From an uncultured SAR116 cluster alpha proteobacterium (lineage in GTDB: Bacteria; Pseudomonadota; Alphaproteobacteria; Puniceispirillales; Marisalimonadaceae), in NCBI GenBank assembly GCA_902595145.1, contig CACJOU010000001.1, forward strand, positions 96,976 through 160,975: 64,000 nt of DNA, written 5' to 3'. The notes under the pieces are model-generated. The model saw only the letters and a program-made list of their open reading frames with translations, ran no database searches and was not told where the DNA came from. Each line of letters opens with the position of its first letter. Position 1 is the stretch's first letter. The position numbers and the translations under genes are program-made. Below, piece after piece: positions 4,090 through 33,407 of the stretch.

Positions 4090-7354
<3,265 letters not shown>

Positions 7355-7374: not shown

Positions 7375-7383
7375 TGTGGATAA
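7375..7383 (-). promoter_or_regulatory. Perfect consensus DnaA box upstream of ccrM
   Basis: TGTGGATAA on plus = TTATCCACA on minus, about 39 nt upstream of ccrM start. Confidence 0.55.
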
Positions 7384-13977: not shown

Positions 13978-14676
13978 TTAGGTATTGTATTTCAAGTAGT
14001 ATAGCCCATTTTTATTTCTCAATGATAAAGATAAGTTTTTATCAATTTTATTTAACTTTTTCTTAAGCCTATATATATGCGTTTCTAAAGTATGTGTATT
14101 AATTTTATCTGAAAATCCCCAGATTTTTATTAATAAATCTTTTTTTAAAATATCTTCATTTTTTTTATTATAAAAGTAAATTAATAGATTATTTTCTTTT
14201 TCAGTTAAGTGTTCTGTGTAATTTGTTTCTAAATTAGAAATAGTTTTTTTAGATGGTGAGAAAATTATATGATCCATTAAATATTTATTAGAATTAATCA
14301 TGGTTTCTGGATAATTTAAGCTATCTAAATAATTAAGAAGAGTTACTAGTTTAAATGGTTTTTCTAATAAAAATACTTTGTTTACATTATCAATCATTTT
14401 TTTATTAAAAGGTTCGTGATAGGCAATGATGTTGACATGTTCATTTTTACTTTGAAGTATATTTATTAAATTTTTAATGTTATCGCCCAAATTATTTAAA
14501 TTTAAAATGCAAGCATCAAAACTTCTATTTGCCACGGTTTCATGCAGCTCTTCATTGTTTTCTACAACTAACAGATCATAATTATTGTATTTTAAAATTT
14601 GATAGTAAAGAATTGAGTTTAAAATTTTTTCCTTTTCATATAATAATATTGACAAGTTTTGTTTCAAGGAAATCAC
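13978..14676 (-). CDS. OmpR/PhoB-type winged-helix regulator with degenerate receiver domain
   Basis: C-terminal LTEKENNLLIYFYNKKNEDILKKDLLIKIWGF...NTHTLETHIYRLKKKL; receiver-like N-terminus with LEKPF but no phosphoacceptor Asp. Confidence 0.82.
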   Translation of the reverse strand: MISLKQNLSILLYEKEKILNSILYYQILKYNNYDLLVVENNEELHETVANRSFDACILNLNNLGDNIKNLINILQSKNEHVNIIAYHEPFNKKMIDNVNKVFLLEKPFKLVTLLNYLDSLNYPETMINSNKYLMDHIIFSPSKKTISNLETNYTEHLTEKENNLLIYFYNKKNEDILKKDLLIKIWGFSDKINTHTLETHIYRLKKKLNKIDKNLSLSLRNKNGLYYLKYNT

Positions 14677-21350: not shown

Positions 21351-22387
21351 AAATCGTTCCTATTTTTTATGAAGATAACTTAAAAAACAAACTAAAAAAC
21401 GTAAACATTATTTTTTTATATGGATCTAACATTGGCTTAGTAGAGCTTATATATAAAAAAACCTTGGAAATTTTGAAAATAGATACACATGACCCTTTTA
21501 CGGTTTCCAAAATAGACGGCAATGAATTTAAGGATAACCCTTTAGTACTTAATGATAATATAAATACTTTAAGTGCTTTATCAGATAAAAGGTATATACT
21601 CTTGGATCTGGTGCATATTTCTCTAACTAAAAATATAGAAAATATTATTTTACAAGCTGTTAAAACAGAAAGTAGTAATTATTTACTACTAATAAAAGCT
21701 TCAAATTTAAAGATAAGTTCTTTTATTAAATATTTCGAAAACAGTAATAATTCTATTTTAGTCCCTTGTTATGAAGAAAAAACAAGTACCCTTCATTCAA
21801 AATTAACAAATTTATTTTCCAAACATAAATTTAATTTCAAAACACATTTTGTTGAAAGTTTAATAATAAGACTTAGTTCAAATTCACTAACTAATGAAAT
21901 GGAAATTGAAAAACTAGATGTTTTTTTAACAAATAATAAAAATGTTACTGAAGAAATGATTTTTACGCTTATTTCAAACAATGATGATTTGAATTTAAAT
22001 AAAGTTATCGAAAATTGCTCTAATGGCAAACCTCTTGATGCATTAATATCTTTTGAAAATATTTATGAGAACCAAAGTACAACCATTACTCTTATACGAT
22101 TATTCGTTAATCACTTTAAATTAATAGAAAGAATTTTATTACTTTTTGAGAAAAACAAAAATTTAGAAAATGTTATAAATAATGTTAAACCACCAATTTT
22201 CTTTAAGAAAAGGGAATTTATATTTTTTCAATGTAAAATTTGGAATTTAAAATTAATAGATATTATATTAATTCGCTTAGTTGAGCTGGAAATAAAATGC
22301 AAATTAAATCATTTCTCAGAAAAAACAATTTTATCACAGTTCATACTATCTACTTCTATTCTTGCAAGGAATAGAATTAAGTCTTAA
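21347..22387 (+). CDS. holA: DNA polymerase III subunit delta
   Basis: FLYGSNIGLVELIYKKTLEIL and position after lptE-like gene; TTG start. Confidence 0.82.
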   Translation: MKIVPIFYEDNLKNKLKNVNIIFLYGSNIGLVELIYKKTLEILKIDTHDPFTVSKIDGNEFKDNPLVLNDNINTLSALSDKRYILLDLVHISLTKNIENIILQAVKTESSNYLLLIKASNLKISSFIKYFENSNNSILVPCYEEKTSTLHSKLTNLFSKHKFNFKTHFVESLIIRLSSNSLTNEMEIEKLDVFLTNNKNVTEEMIFTLISNNDDLNLNKVIENCSNGKPLDALISFENIYENQSTTITLIRLFVNHFKLIERILLLFEKNKNLENVINNVKPPIFFKKREFIFFQCKIWNLKLIDIILIRLVELEIKCKLNHFSEKTILSQFILSTSILARNRIKS

Positions 22388-23234
22388 TTTTTTTTATAAT
22401 AAAATTAAACTCTTCTAAATTTTTACATTGTAGTTTAATAGTTCCAGTTTTTTTCAAACTATCAAAATCAATATTTACATCTAATCCTGTTATTTCAGAT
22501 AATTCTTTTTCTAAATTAATTATGTCTATATTTTTATCTTTGTTTTTGGGAGACTTTATATTTCGATTTTTTATGAGTTTTTCGATATCCCTAGAATTAA
22601 GTTTATTCTTTAATATTATATCTAGATAAATGTCAGCATCTTTATGTCCTATAAGTGGTCGGACTTGACCAATGGTAAGTTTTTGTTGCAAAAGTAATTC
22701 CTTGGCTTTATCTGATAATAATAAAAGTCTAGTAATATTACCAACATAAGACCGAGATTTTCCAACTGCTTTTGAAATATCTTCTTGAGTATAATCGTAA
22801 TTGGTAATAAGAGACTGATAACCTTCGGCTTCTTCAATTGGATTTAATTCAGATCTTTGAATGTTTTCAACCAAAGACAATTCAGCAATTTTATCTTCAT
22901 TAATATCATCACGTATAATGGCTGGAATTTCATGTATTTTGGCTAGTTGACAAGCTCTCCATCTTCTTTCACCGGCAACTATAAAGTATTGATTTTTTAT
23001 AGTGTCATTTGATTTTAAAATCACTGGTTGAATTATGCCCTGTTTCTTAATTGAATTTGACAAAGACTCTAATTCATCTTTATCAAAAATTTTTCTTGGT
23101 TGCCACGGTCCAGGTTTGATAAACTCTAGTGGTATCATTTTATAATTATCAGTATTTTTTTCTACTTCAACACCCAAAAGACTAGATAGACCACTTCCAA
23201 GTCCTATGGGTCTAGCATTTTTCTTTTGTTTCAT
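22377..23234 (-). CDS. parB: Chromosome partitioning protein ParB
   Basis: IKPGPWQPRKIFD, VAGERRWRACQLAKIHEIPAIIR, VENIQRSELNPIEEAEGYQ. Confidence 0.96.
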   Translation of the reverse strand: MKQKKNARPIGLGSGLSSLLGVEVEKNTDNYKMIPLEFIKPGPWQPRKIFDKDELESLSNSIKKQGIIQPVILKSNDTIKNQYFIVAGERRWRACQLAKIHEIPAIIRDDINEDKIAELSLVENIQRSELNPIEEAEGYQSLITNYDYTQEDISKAVGKSRSYVGNITRLLLLSDKAKELLLQQKLTIGQVRPLIGHKDADIYLDIILKNKLNSRDIEKLIKNRNIKSPKNKDKNIDIINLEKELSEITGLDVNIDFDSLKKTGTIKLQCKNLEEFNFIIKKIKT

Positions 23235-24022
23235 TTTAGATCTTTCTCTAGATTAATGATTTCACCTGCCAATGAAGCATATGCTTGAGATCCTGGACAC
23301 GAAATATCATACATTAAAACTGGCTGACCGTAACTAGGTGCTTCAGAGATTCTAACGTTTCTTGGAATTATAGTTTTAAAAACTTTATCATTAAAATGAT
23401 TTTTAACGTCATTTGACACCATTTCACATATTTTATTTCTTTTATCATACATAGTTAGAAGTATACCTTGAAGAGTAATTTTATTATTAAAATTATTTTT
23501 AATTGATTCCAACGTTTTCAAAAGTTGTGTTAACCCTTCCAATGCATAAAATTCAGTTTGCAAGGGTACAATTAAACTTTTTGCTGCACATAAAGCATTT
23601 AATGTAAGCAACCCTAAAGAAGGTGGACAATCAATGAATATGTAATCGTAAAACTCACTAATTTCTTTAATTAAATCACGAATTTTAAATTCTCTATTTT
23701 TTACATCCACTAATTCTTGTTCAAGAACTGACAGATCTGGTGAGGTGGGAATAATATCCAATTTTGGAATCATAGTTTTTTTAATTGAAACATTAATATT
23801 GCTTTTACCACAAATTATAGAATATAAATCTTTATCTCTTTGTTCATATTTTATACCAAATCCAGTGCTGGCATTTCCTTGTGGATCTGCATCAATTATA
23901 AGTGTTTTTTTATCACATGCTGCCATAGCTGTTGCCAAATTTATTACAGTAGTAGTTTTGCCTACACCACCTTTCTGATTTGCAATAGCTATTATCTGTG
24001 TAAATTTATTTGTCATTTTCAA
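23231..24022 (-). CDS. parA: Chromosome partitioning ATPase ParA
   Basis: IAIANQKGGVGKTTTVINLATAMA deviant Walker A; DADPQGNASTG. Confidence 0.97.
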   Translation of the reverse strand: MKMTNKFTQIIAIANQKGGVGKTTTVINLATAMAACDKKTLIIDADPQGNASTGFGIKYEQRDKDLYSIICGKSNINVSIKKTMIPKLDIIPTSPDLSVLEQELVDVKNREFKIRDLIKEISEFYDYIFIDCPPSLGLLTLNALCAAKSLIVPLQTEFYALEGLTQLLKTLESIKNNFNNKITLQGILLTMYDKRNKICEMVSNDVKNHFNDKVFKTIIPRNVRISEAPSYGQPVLMYDISCPGSQAYASLAGEIINLEKDLK

Positions 24023-24665
24023 TATTTAACTTATCTACTTTGTATATATATAAAATTTTACCATCTCTATCTGTCATTGATGGATATTCTTCGAAACTAA
24101 TTTTTTTATTTTTACTTAATTCAATAACTTCTGAATAATAAGATTTTCCCTTTAAAAACAACAGGTTAGGTAATTCTTGTTTTTCTCCTAATGATTTATT
24201 TGTGAAGATCTCTACATAATCAACTAGCTTACTTAATGAAGCTAATGCTCTGGAAGTAATTAAATCAACATTTATAAAGCTTAAATCTTCAATTCTACAG
24301 TTATGAATAGTTATATCTATTTCTGTTAACATTGCAATTTCTTTTAAAAAAATGCACTTTTTATAATCTGATTCAACTAAATGAATATTTTTTTTACCCA
24401 TTATTGCAAGCACCATACCTGGAAAACCCGCTCCAGAACCAAAATCTATTATGTTTCCCTCTACATTCCTTACAAATCTATATAATTGTGCAGAATCTAA
24501 GAAGTGTCTAACCCAAATACTATTTATAGTGCTTTTACTTATTAAATTCATTGAGTTTTGCCACTTAGTAAGAATTTTCTCAAACACACATAATTTTTCA
24601 TATGTTTCACGTGAAACAAATACATGTGAACTAAAGTTTTCATATGTATTAATATTCGTTAACAA
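24006..24665 (-). CDS. rsmG: 16S rRNA (guanine527-N7)-methyltransferase
   Basis: [37 protein letters not shown]. Confidence 0.95.
24603..24618. promoter_or_regulatory. parS: parS centromere site inside rsmG
   Basis: TGTTTCACGTGAAACA, exact match to the canonical 16-bp parS palindrome. Confidence 0.93.
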
Positions 24666-27859: not shown

Positions 27860-27875
27860 TGTTTCACGTGAAACG
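27860..27875. promoter_or_regulatory. parS: Second parS site, between mnmE and rho
   Basis: TGTTTCACGTGAAACG, 15/16 match to canonical parS with intact 14-bp palindromic core. Confidence 0.9.
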
Positions 27876-29609: not shown

Positions 29610-30641
29610 TTACCTATTATAATTTCTAACGATACTAATAACTTCTTTTACATTATCTATCTTACAATCTGGAGTAAGACCATGACCAACGTTAAATATA
29701 AATCTCTTGTCTTTCATAATATCTAAACAAGTTAAAACATTCTGACTTAAATAATCACTATGAGATGGAATAAGTGATGCCGGGTCAAGATTACCTTGTA
29801 TAGCAATATCTTTATTAATATTCATTATTGCCCAAAGTAAATCAACTGACCAGTCTAACGCAATACAATCAACTTTACTTTCAAAAGAATATCTTACAAT
29901 AGACGCTCCTGCTTTAAACGGAAATCCAATAACAGGAACAAAAATTTTCCTAGATCTTAAAATATCTATAATTTTTGCCGTTGGTCTTATTGCACAATCA
30001 TTAAAGAAGTTATTGGGAATCATATGAGACCATGAATCGAAAAGCATTAAGACATCAGCTCCAGCTCTAGCTTGCATTTCTAATTTATCAGCAACATAAA
30101 CTATAAGTGTTTCAATTAATTGCATAAACCATTTATTTGAACTCCAAAGAGCTTTTCTAGTATTAATAAAATCTTTGCTTCCTTTTCCTTCAATCATATA
30201 GCAAGCTAAAGTCCAAGGAGCCCCTGCAAATCCAATTAACCCAATAGTTTTTGGTAAAGTACTTCTAAGATAACTGATTGCATTTTTCAACGGATCGAGT
30301 TTGGTTGATATAGATATATTTTGTAAAATATTTGTTTCATCTGGGATCATAGGATTCAATGAAGGACCAAAATTTTTAGTAAATTTTACATTTCTATTCA
30401 TAGCCCAAGGTATCATTAAAATATCAGAAAATATTATTGCAGCATCAAGATCATAATACTTTAATGGTAGATTTGTACTTTTAATTATTAATTCCTCATT
30501 CAAACAAAACTTCACAAAATTTGTTTCTTTTTTTCTGATCTTATAATATTCAGGTAAATGTCTACCTGCTTGGCGTAAAAACCAAATAGGAATATCGTCA
30601 CATCTACTTTTAAGAGTTTTACTAATTAAATTTTCTTGCAC
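29610..30641 (-). CDS. hemE: Uroporphyrinogen decarboxylase
   Basis: PIWFLRQAGRHLPEYYKIR, GFAGAPWTLACYMIEG, FNVGHGLTPDCKIDNV. Confidence 0.96.
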   Translation of the reverse strand: MQENLISKTLKSRCDDIPIWFLRQAGRHLPEYYKIRKKETNFVKFCLNEELIIKSTNLPLKYYDLDAAIIFSDILMIPWAMNRNVKFTKNFGPSLNPMIPDETNILQNISISTKLDPLKNAISYLRSTLPKTIGLIGFAGAPWTLACYMIEGKGSKDFINTRKALWSSNKWFMQLIETLIVYVADKLEMQARAGADVLMLFDSWSHMIPNNFFNDCAIRPTAKIIDILRSRKIFVPVIGFPFKAGASIVRYSFESKVDCIALDWSVDLLWAIMNINKDIAIQGNLDPASLIPSHSDYLSQNVLTCLDIMKDKRFIFNVGHGLTPDCKIDNVKEVISIVRNYNR

Positions 30642-30908
30642 AAAATTACTTTATTAAGAAGTTGTATGATGTTGTTGTTTTTTATAAAATTGTGAATAAA
30701 AGAAAAAAAAAAATTAATCCACATATTTATAAAAAATTATTTATTGAATTATATAAGGAAATAAAGTTATTCACAAATAATAATCTTTATATTTAATTTT
30801 ATTAACATGTAAAGAAAATTTGGATAAATATTTAAAAGTAAAAAAATAACAAATTCATTAAAAGAAAATGACAATTATCAACAATTTATTCAGTAGAGAA
30901 AAAACTTC
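30642..30908. other. oriC: Candidate chromosomal replication origin (oriC)
   Basis: 267-bp AT-rich non-coding gap downstream of hemE start and upstream of coaE; two TTATTCACA boxes (30691-30699 minus, 30767-30775 plus) plus one-mismatch boxes at 30715, 30819 and 30875; gene-direction switch at the gap. Confidence 0.75.
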
Positions 30909-31511
30909 ATGATAATAATTGGAATAACAGGTTCAATAGGTATGGGTAAAACAACTGTGTCTAAAATGTTTAGAGTTTTAAAAATACCAGTTTTTGATTC
31001 AGATAAAAAAGTAAAAGAAATATTAGAAAGAAATTATGACGTTATAGAAAAGATATCAAAGATTTGGCCCGAATCAGTATCGATTAATCAAAAACAAAAA
31101 AAAATTAAGAAGGAAGTTCTAAGCAATAAAATATTTGAAAATAAAAACGAAAGAAAAAAATTAGAGAAAATAATACATCCACTTGTTAAAAAAGAGAGAA
31201 AATCGTTTTTGAAAAAATTTGAGGAATATTTTGTAGTAGGCTTAGATATACCTTTATTATACGAAACAGGTATGGATAAAGGATGTGATTACATTTTTTT
31301 AGTACATACTACAAAAAAAAATCAAAAAAAAAGGGTCTTAAAGAGGAAAAATATGACCGAAAAAAAATTTGATTTAATAAATAATTCACAATGGAATTTT
31401 GAAAAGAAAAAAAAAGAAAAACCTTTTATAATAAATACATCTTTTGGTAAATTGGTGACATTTATTATTATTTTGTTTTATTTGTCTAAAATAAAATATA
31501 GAGGAAAATAA
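30909..31511 (+). CDS. coaE: Dephospho-CoA kinase
   Basis: IIGITGSIGMGKTTVSKMF, VFDSDKKVKEIL, DIPLLYETGMD. Confidence 0.92.
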   Translation: MIIIGITGSIGMGKTTVSKMFRVLKIPVFDSDKKVKEILERNYDVIEKISKIWPESVSINQKQKKIKKEVLSNKIFENKNERKKLEKIIHPLVKKERKSFLKKFEEYFVVGLDIPLLYETGMDKGCDYIFLVHTTKKNQKKRVLKRKNMTEKKFDLINNSQWNFEKKKKEKPFIINTSFGKLVTFIIILFYLSKIKYRGK

Positions 31512-32777: not shown

Positions 32778-33407
32778 ATGCAAAACAGTTTCCCGTATAT
32801 TGATATTTTAATTTTTGGAGTTATAGCAATTTTCCTTATTTTTAGACTTAAGAACATATTAGGTACAAAAACGGGTTTTGAAGAGACAAATGTTAATGAA
32901 AAAAATCAAGATAAACGATTTACTAATGTGGTACCTTTAAAGTCTAACAAAGATGATGTTGTAGATTTAGAATTAAATAAAATTTTAGACATTGATCCTA
33001 ATTTTAATGTTGATGATTTCTTGTCTGGATCAAAAAATTTTTTTGAAATGGTTTTAGAAAGCTTTGTTAGTGGAAATTTAGCAAACATTAAAAATTTTAC
33101 TAAAGCATCAGTCCTCAAAAGCTTTAAATCTGCTATTGATGAAAGAAACAAAGAACAAGAAACACTCATTATTGACTTAAAGTCAATAAAAGAAAATAAA
33201 ATAACTAAAGCAACTATAACTAAAACATCTATAAAATTAAACGTTGTTTTTGAGACTTTACAAATAAGAGCGTTAACGGATAAAGATGATCAAATTATTG
33301 ATGGAAATACTGAAAATGAAATTGTTGTTAAAGATGAGTGGGTTTTTGAAAGAAAAATAAACGACAATAATCCTAACTGGACACTTGTTGAAACCAAAAG
33401 TAATTAA
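32778..33407 (+). CDS. Tim44/TimA domain protein
   Basis: N-terminal TM (YIDILIFGVIAIFLIFRLKNILG..TG), ALTDK/ DEWVFERKINDNNPNWTLVET typical of Tim44-like proteins; position between secB and smr-domain gene. Confidence 0.85.
   Translation: MQNSFPYIDILIFGVIAIFLIFRLKNILGTKTGFEETNVNEKNQDKRFTNVVPLKSNKDDVVDLELNKILDIDPNFNVDDFLSGSKNFFEMVLESFVSGNLANIKNFTKASVLKSFKSAIDERNKEQETLIIDLKSIKENKITKATITKTSIKLNVVFETLQIRALTDKDDQIIDGNTENEIVVKDEWVFERKINDNNPNWTLVETKSN

Follow-up and report, generated by a model that had tools for sequence, protein, structure and literature searches.

In Caulobacter and Rickettsia, the origin of chromosome replication (oriC) lies between hemE and COG1806, a neighbour that is typical of hemE-type origins without being universal, as Wolbachia differs (PMC1914354). 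Both Caulobacter crescentus Cori and Rickettsia prowazekii oriC are AT-rich, carry several DnaA boxes, coincide with a switch in GC skew and have dnaA elsewhere on the chromosome. For Bacillus subtilis the unwinding site is also described. The layout of its basal unwinding system (BUS) comprises a DnaA box, a spacer of mostly 13 nt and a series of 3'-GAT-5' trios; by the published definition, the middle base of a DnaA-trio has to be adenine, and the authors of that definition anticipated deviant motifs lacking it (PMC8287927). In B. subtilis DnaA the middle A is read by Asn187 and the G by Arg202 and Glu228, and replacing the middle A of the trio with T or G impairs both unwinding and initiation (PMC10721633). 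The DnaA of E. coli depends on the motifs 5'-TTGT-3' and 5'-TTATT-3' in the T-rich strand (PMC5742627). How differing DnaA proteins recognise differing single-strand motifs is an open question for the E. coli and Thermotoga maritima proteins (PMC10316083).

Here we describe the AT-rich gap between hemE and coaE in a member of the SAR116 cluster (Puniceispirillales). The gap lies in a 64,000-nucleotide stretch of DNA (G000:C1:96976-160975; hereafter termed the window), which belongs to a draft genome of 1.42 Mb in 49 contigs that is 72% complete. The gap is very probably the bidirectional chromosomal oriC of this organism, at which DnaA would open the duplex from one particular box (box 1) at an array of triplets on the hemE side. 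In most respects it looks like an ordinary alphaproteobacterial origin at the expected place, and its point of interest would be a plausible, reproducible variant of the unwinding motif.

Gene neighbourhood of the hemE-coaE gap

The hemE gene (TIGR01464) ends at 30641 and the gap starts at the next base (Table 1). As at the hemE-type origins of Caulobacter and Rickettsia, the genes coaE, dnaQ and secB come after the gap, and dnaA is not on the window contig C1 but on contig C3, which is the usual arrangement in Alphaproteobacteria. The locus differs from the Caulobacter and Rickettsia origins in that the gap is 267 bp long, its other neighbour is coaE rather than COG1806, COG1806 and maf are missing from this spot, and no CtrA is found in the family. 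The gene order of one relative (G048) bears on this difference. There, the order is hemE, gap, a COG1806-like gene, a maf-like gene, coaE and dnaQ, where the COG1806-like and maf-like names are our own reading of the two sequences. These two genes, which separate oriC from coaE in the relative, are absent here in the genus of the window, and the origin would therefore lie between hemE and coaE in this genus.

The partitioning genes parAB and two parS sites are found within 8.3 kb of the gap, with the parS sites 3 and 6 kb away. The original prediction, which proposed a bidirectional origin in this gap, had pointed out that the eight genes from parB to hemE all run leftward, and the gene strands in the window agree. 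Its companion statement, that genes to the right of the gap run rightward apart from secB, holds up to ~37.9 kb and fails beyond that point, where several genes run leftward; we take these to be a gshB-like gene, a BON-domain gene, rsmI, hemW, rdgB and rph.

Table 1. Features in and around the hemE-coaE gap, in window coordinates. Conservation is given as mean information per base.
Feature	Position	Strand	Remarks
Very probable oriC: AT-rich hemE-coaE intergenic gap	30642..30908	.	15% GC, box cluster, skew minimum 30649, conserved in 30 relatives
DnaA-trio-like triplet array; proposed ssDNA DnaA-binding/unwinding site	30666..30677	+	G every third base in 30/30 gaps
13-nt AT-rich spacer, array to box 1	30678..30690	.	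13/13 A or T; length conserved in genus
DnaA box 1, TTATTCACA, faces hemE; proposed loading box	30691..30699	-	exact TTATNCACA; 1.18 bits
DnaA box 2, TAATCCACA (TTATCCACA in near relatives)	30715..30723	+	1.26 bits
DnaA box 3, TTATTCACA	30767..30775	+	exact TTATNCACA; 1.09 bits
DnaA box 4, TTATTAACA, missing from the original prediction	30799..30807	+	1 mismatch; 0.85 bits
Conserved A[C/G]ATGTNNTTAA element (ACATGTAAAGAA here), runs into box 4	30805..30816	+	columns conserved in ~26 to 29/30 gaps
DnaA box 5, TTATCCAAA, weak	30819..30827	-	1 mismatch; 0.57 bits, lowest of set
DnaA box 6, TTATCAACA	30875..30883	+	1 mismatch; 0.88 bits
DnaA box 7, TTATTCAGT (TTATTAACA in many relatives)	30886..30894	+	0.89 bits; visible by alignment only
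hemE, uroporphyrinogen decarboxylase	29610..30641	-	TIGR01464 324.5 bits, above cut-off
coaE, dephospho-CoA kinase	30909..31511	+	TIGR00152 120 bits, above cut-off
parB (22377-23234) and parA (23231-24022)	22377..24022	-	
parS, TGTTTCACGTGAAACA, perfect	24603..24618	.	within rsmG (gidB)
Second parS, TGTTTCACGTGAAACG, 1 mismatch	27860..27875	.	between rho and mnmE

Composition and DnaA-box cluster

The gap has the AT content expected of an oriC: its 267 bp contain 15.0% GC compared with a window mean of 29.5%, and stretches of that length that are equally GC-poor make up 0.06% of the window. Within it are six DnaA boxes with at most one mismatch to TTATNCACA, two of which are exact, where 0.61 boxes would be expected. 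None of 5,000 dinucleotide shuffles of the gap gave six boxes, and two exact boxes arose in 0.02% of the gap shuffles. Because the box pattern itself is not enriched in the window (90 matches versus 108 expected), it is the clustering that constitutes the signal, and the gap is the densest 267-bp stretch for DnaA boxes in the whole window. Five of the boxes had been named in the original prediction, all with exact coordinates and strands. To these can be added box 4 (TTATTAACA), the conserved site TTATTCAGT that we number box 7, and the triplet array. Boxes 6 and 7 are arranged in tandem, 11 bp apart.

Comparison with the gaps of relatives, which had been suggested as a check on the boxes, was carried out by aligning 30 distinct related hemE-coaE gaps of near-constant length. 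The boxes occupy conserved positions in these 30 gaps; all seven positions are kept, with box 5 the least conserved. Weighted information per base is 0.93 bits in the seven boxes and the triplet array and 0.26 bits elsewhere. When the arrangement of features was compared with its circular shifts along the alignment, it ranked 1 of 255 for conservation.

GC skew

We calculated GC skew for contig C1, for one 267-kb contig of a congener (G008) and for sampled stretches of larger contigs. A cumulative minimum was expected in the gap if it is an origin, and on contig C1, a single draft contig, the minimum indeed falls at window position 30649 (contig position 127,624 of 160,975 bp), eight bases inside the gap. 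The skew curve of this contig is shallow and nearly flat for ~40 kb to the left of the minimum, so the minimum alone is imprecise. In the congener, the minimum of the 267-kb contig is ~400 bp from that genome's own gap. Sampled 20-kb stretches of three complete genomes from the order show a switch of sign at hemE, with values of -0.18, +0.07 and +0.15 in succession in G043, and -0.070 followed by +0.047 in G042. In G048 the values are -0.069, +0.009 and +0.059, and the switch occurs at or just before hemE. The contig skew minimum, the skew switch at hemE in relatives, the conserved boxes and the known locus all support the proposal that the gap is a bidirectional origin.

A triplet array phase-locked to box 1

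The published BUS description asks for a DnaA box with no more than two mismatches, a spacer of 0-16 nt (mostly ~13) and at least three NAN triplets. In the window, box 1 (TTATTCACA) has no mismatch, the spacer measures 13 nt, and the longest NAN run after box 1 is two triplets. The published NAN rule fires by chance in DNA that is 85% AT (the mean NAN run after boxes in shuffled sequence is ~2.2-3.6), and for this reason we scored G at a period of three instead. Read 3'->5' from box 1, the array is GTT GTT GTA GTA (5'->3', ATGATGTTGTTG). All 30 gaps have a spacer of 10-14 nt after box 1 (13 or 14 nt in 17/30), followed by G-first triplets. At least four G residues at period three, forming four or five triplets, follow box 1 in 28/30 gaps and follow any other box in 0/30.

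The identity of the middle base varies among relatives. Canonical 3'-GAT-5' repeats occupy the array site in sister lineages, and in three of these (L021, L022 and L027) the site carries TAG x4-5 and thus contains the three or more NAN triplets of the published rule. On a hemE tree, GAT repeats are present in the outgroup L059 and in several deep lineages, while the clade of the window has mostly GTT and GTA. Over the whole genus, 75 triplets have T and 47 have A as the middle base, and in the window this base is T in 4/4 triplets.

The arrangement resembles B. subtilis BUS in its box, its 13-nt spacer and its G-first triplets on the strand that runs 3'->5' away from the box, and differs from it in having T rather than A as the middle base of every window triplet and in having a DnaA with Tyr rather than Asn at residue 187 (PMC8287927, PMC10721633). 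The tandem TAG repeats of the three sister lineages are like the T. maritima eTrio (TAG x3; PMC10316083), whereas the window has TTG-type triplets combined with standard DnaA boxes.

DnaA residues predicted to read the triplets

The cognate DnaA is encoded at L001:976-2412 on the minus strand. DnaA residues were numbered by alignment to the solved B. subtilis protein (8btg). At positions 187, 202 and 228, all 30 DnaA proteins of the genus carry Tyr, Lys and Glu, respectively. Relative to the B. subtilis residues that contact the trio, E228 is therefore kept, R202 is changed to K and N187 is changed to Y. Residue 187 is Tyr in 26 and Phe in three of 29 DnaA proteins sampled from other families of Alphaproteobacteria, which brings the alphaproteobacterial total to 3/59 with Phe and the rest with Tyr. 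The same residue is Asn in eight, Thr in eight, Ala in seven and Gln in four of 27 DnaA proteins from other classes of the phylum, with no Tyr or Phe among them.

These comparisons lead us to infer that DnaA has kept, or changed conservatively, the residues that contact the invariant G, and that it has lost the contact to A at the position where A is relaxed. Tyr at 187 may be what lets DnaA tolerate a middle T. We considered co-evolution of DnaA with the GAT -> GTT change in the genus and rejected it, as Tyr187 is constant across the genus; this constancy argues for tolerance rather than co-change.

Arrays similar to that of the window occur beside hemE in the order and in parts of the class. 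In a survey of the class, five or more G-period triplets were found at 10/104 boxes that face hemE and at 2/120 boxes of the opposite orientation; about half of the 80 hemE-upstream regions surveyed are without clustered boxes and might not be origins at all, and plain GC-rich sequence accounts for some of the matches. Shuffling gave a mean of 0.94 and a maximum of 5 such matches at hemE-facing boxes in 300 trials. The survey is suggestive of a variant triplet across Alphaproteobacteria, and among the papers searched we found no account of such a variant for this class. We propose tentatively, with slightly more doubt than confidence, a variant DnaA-trio for Alphaproteobacteria, 3'-G[T/A/G]T-5', in which the middle position would no longer be read as adenine owing to Tyr or Phe at 187. 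Under the same proposal, the motif of this SAR116 genus would switch between TAG-type, as in B. subtilis and T. maritima, and TTG-type, similar to the TTGT of E. coli, at one fixed site while the base-reading residues that we checked stay unchanged.

Possible routes of duplex opening

The arrangement of features suggests how initiation might proceed. DnaA would bind the box cluster, and an oligomer of DnaA-ATP would then grow from box 1 across the AT-rich spacer of 13 bp to reach the plus strand of the array. The duplex would open in the hemE leader, where helicase would be loaded. From there two forks would depart, one via hemE-parAB and the other via coaE-dnaQ.

Somewhat unlikely, though the best of the alternatives, is an oriC that uses the E. 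coli route, in which the opened T-rich strand is looped back to box-bound DnaA (ssDUE recruitment) and its TTGT motifs are read with no continuous filament being formed. The plus strand of the array is 5'-TTGTTGTT-3', and TTGTT occurs on the bound strand of the TTG-type array. The TTGT-bearing strand of the array corresponds to the motif strand of the E. coli DUE. The gap also contains one match to the IHF consensus (WATCAN5WTR) at 30876-30888, inside boxes 6/7, but this match is not conserved because the fifth box base is C in only 14/30 gaps. Although the trio strand of the window has TTGT twice, in keeping with the TTGT and TTATT motifs of the E. coli DUE (PMC5742627), the gap is without 13-mers and its triplets are locked to one box, an arrangement that fits a filament better.

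Opening might instead take place at the coaE side of the origin, with tandem boxes 6/7 directing DnaA to the strand opposite the initial coaE codons (3'-TAC TAT TAT TAA-5'). We regard this as decidedly improbable. The two co-oriented boxes, given their 11-bp separation, are like boxes 6/7 of B. subtilis, and NAN triplet runs after box 7 average 4.2 compared with 2.2 in shuffled sequence; yet coaE begins with the hydrophobic stretch MIII, whose NTN codons account for the run. Furthermore, the coaE side is not conserved, because coaE is not adjacent to the origin in G048, a relative from family f4, whereas the box and triplets on the hemE side are seen repeatedly in the order.

It is more improbable still that the gap is oriC and the array is conserved for hemE expression, either as a leader or as an unannotated N-terminal extension, rather than for DnaA. 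The array does lie 24 bp upstream of the hemE start. However, its distance from box 1 is tight (10-14 nt) while its distance from hemE ranges over 8-45 nt in the 30 gaps, and an in-frame stop separates the array from hemE in 25/30 gaps, the window included, which together argue that the array is not hemE coding sequence. The conversion of the array to canonical 3'-GAT-5' repeats in sister lineages also speaks against a role in hemE expression.

Finally, we consider it highly improbable that oriC is elsewhere and that the gap serves solely as a divergent promoter region for hemE and coaE, with DnaA boxes that regulate transcription. A gap between divergent genes must contain two promoters, and this genome has DnaA boxes in further promoters as well (the nrdJ pair and one before ccrM). 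Against this reading, the skew minimum falls in the gap, the skew sign switches at hemE in relatives, no stretch of the window is denser in boxes, the genome has only one other exact pair within 120 bp, and the position agrees with the origin locus known for the class.

Cell-cycle regulators and other DnaA boxes

A conserved A[C/G]ATGTNNTTAA element that runs into box 4 resembles TTAA-N7-TTAA or a CtrA half-site, although no CtrA could be detected in this family; exact copies of TTAA-N7-TTAA are absent from the 267-bp gap. CtrA was not detected in 27 genomes of family f1, where the best score against the CtrA model is at most ~142 bits, a value typical of ChvI/PhoB-like paralogs, compared with 222-292 bits in the majority of f2 and f4 genomes. 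A CtrA site overlapping DnaA box 4 (TT[A/C]A-N7-TTAA-like, as in Caulobacter) was therefore considered and rejected, since these 27 genomes are without a CtrA-scoring regulator. With no CtrA found in the family, control of the origin by CtrA is not expected. CtrA seems to have been lost in family f1 and apparently in f3, and kept in most f2 and f4 genomes. The window does encode a divergent response-regulator-like protein (13978-14676, minus strand) that has weak matches to many OmpR/PhoB models and relatives in four congeners (L364, L366, L367 and L368).

The ccrM gene is retained in the window (6254-7336, minus strand); its product scores best against the CcrM model, with 607 bits, which is below the Caulobacter-level cut-off of that model. 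There are no GANTC sites in the gap, and this absence is uninformative because only ~0.4 would be expected. A perfect TTATCCACA box at window 7375-7383 is located 39 bp ahead of the ccrM start and makes a link between DnaA and ccrM possible.

Outside the window, the nrdJ promoter is the only other place in the genome with two exact boxes no more than 120 bp apart. This TTATCCACA pair, 108 bp apart, is located at G000:C9:33246-33254 and 33354-33362 (L194 1747-1755 and 1855-1863). As nrdJ encodes a B12-dependent ribonucleotide reductase, the pair suggests DnaA control of nucleotide supply.

Implications

The 30-genome alignment provides a set of natural unwinding-motif variants that are paired with known DnaA sequences, and it bears on how DnaA recognises single-strand motifs. 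Moreover, with the origin fixed for this abundant and mostly uncultured marine group, read coverage would become convertible to growth-rate estimates by peak-to-trough methods.
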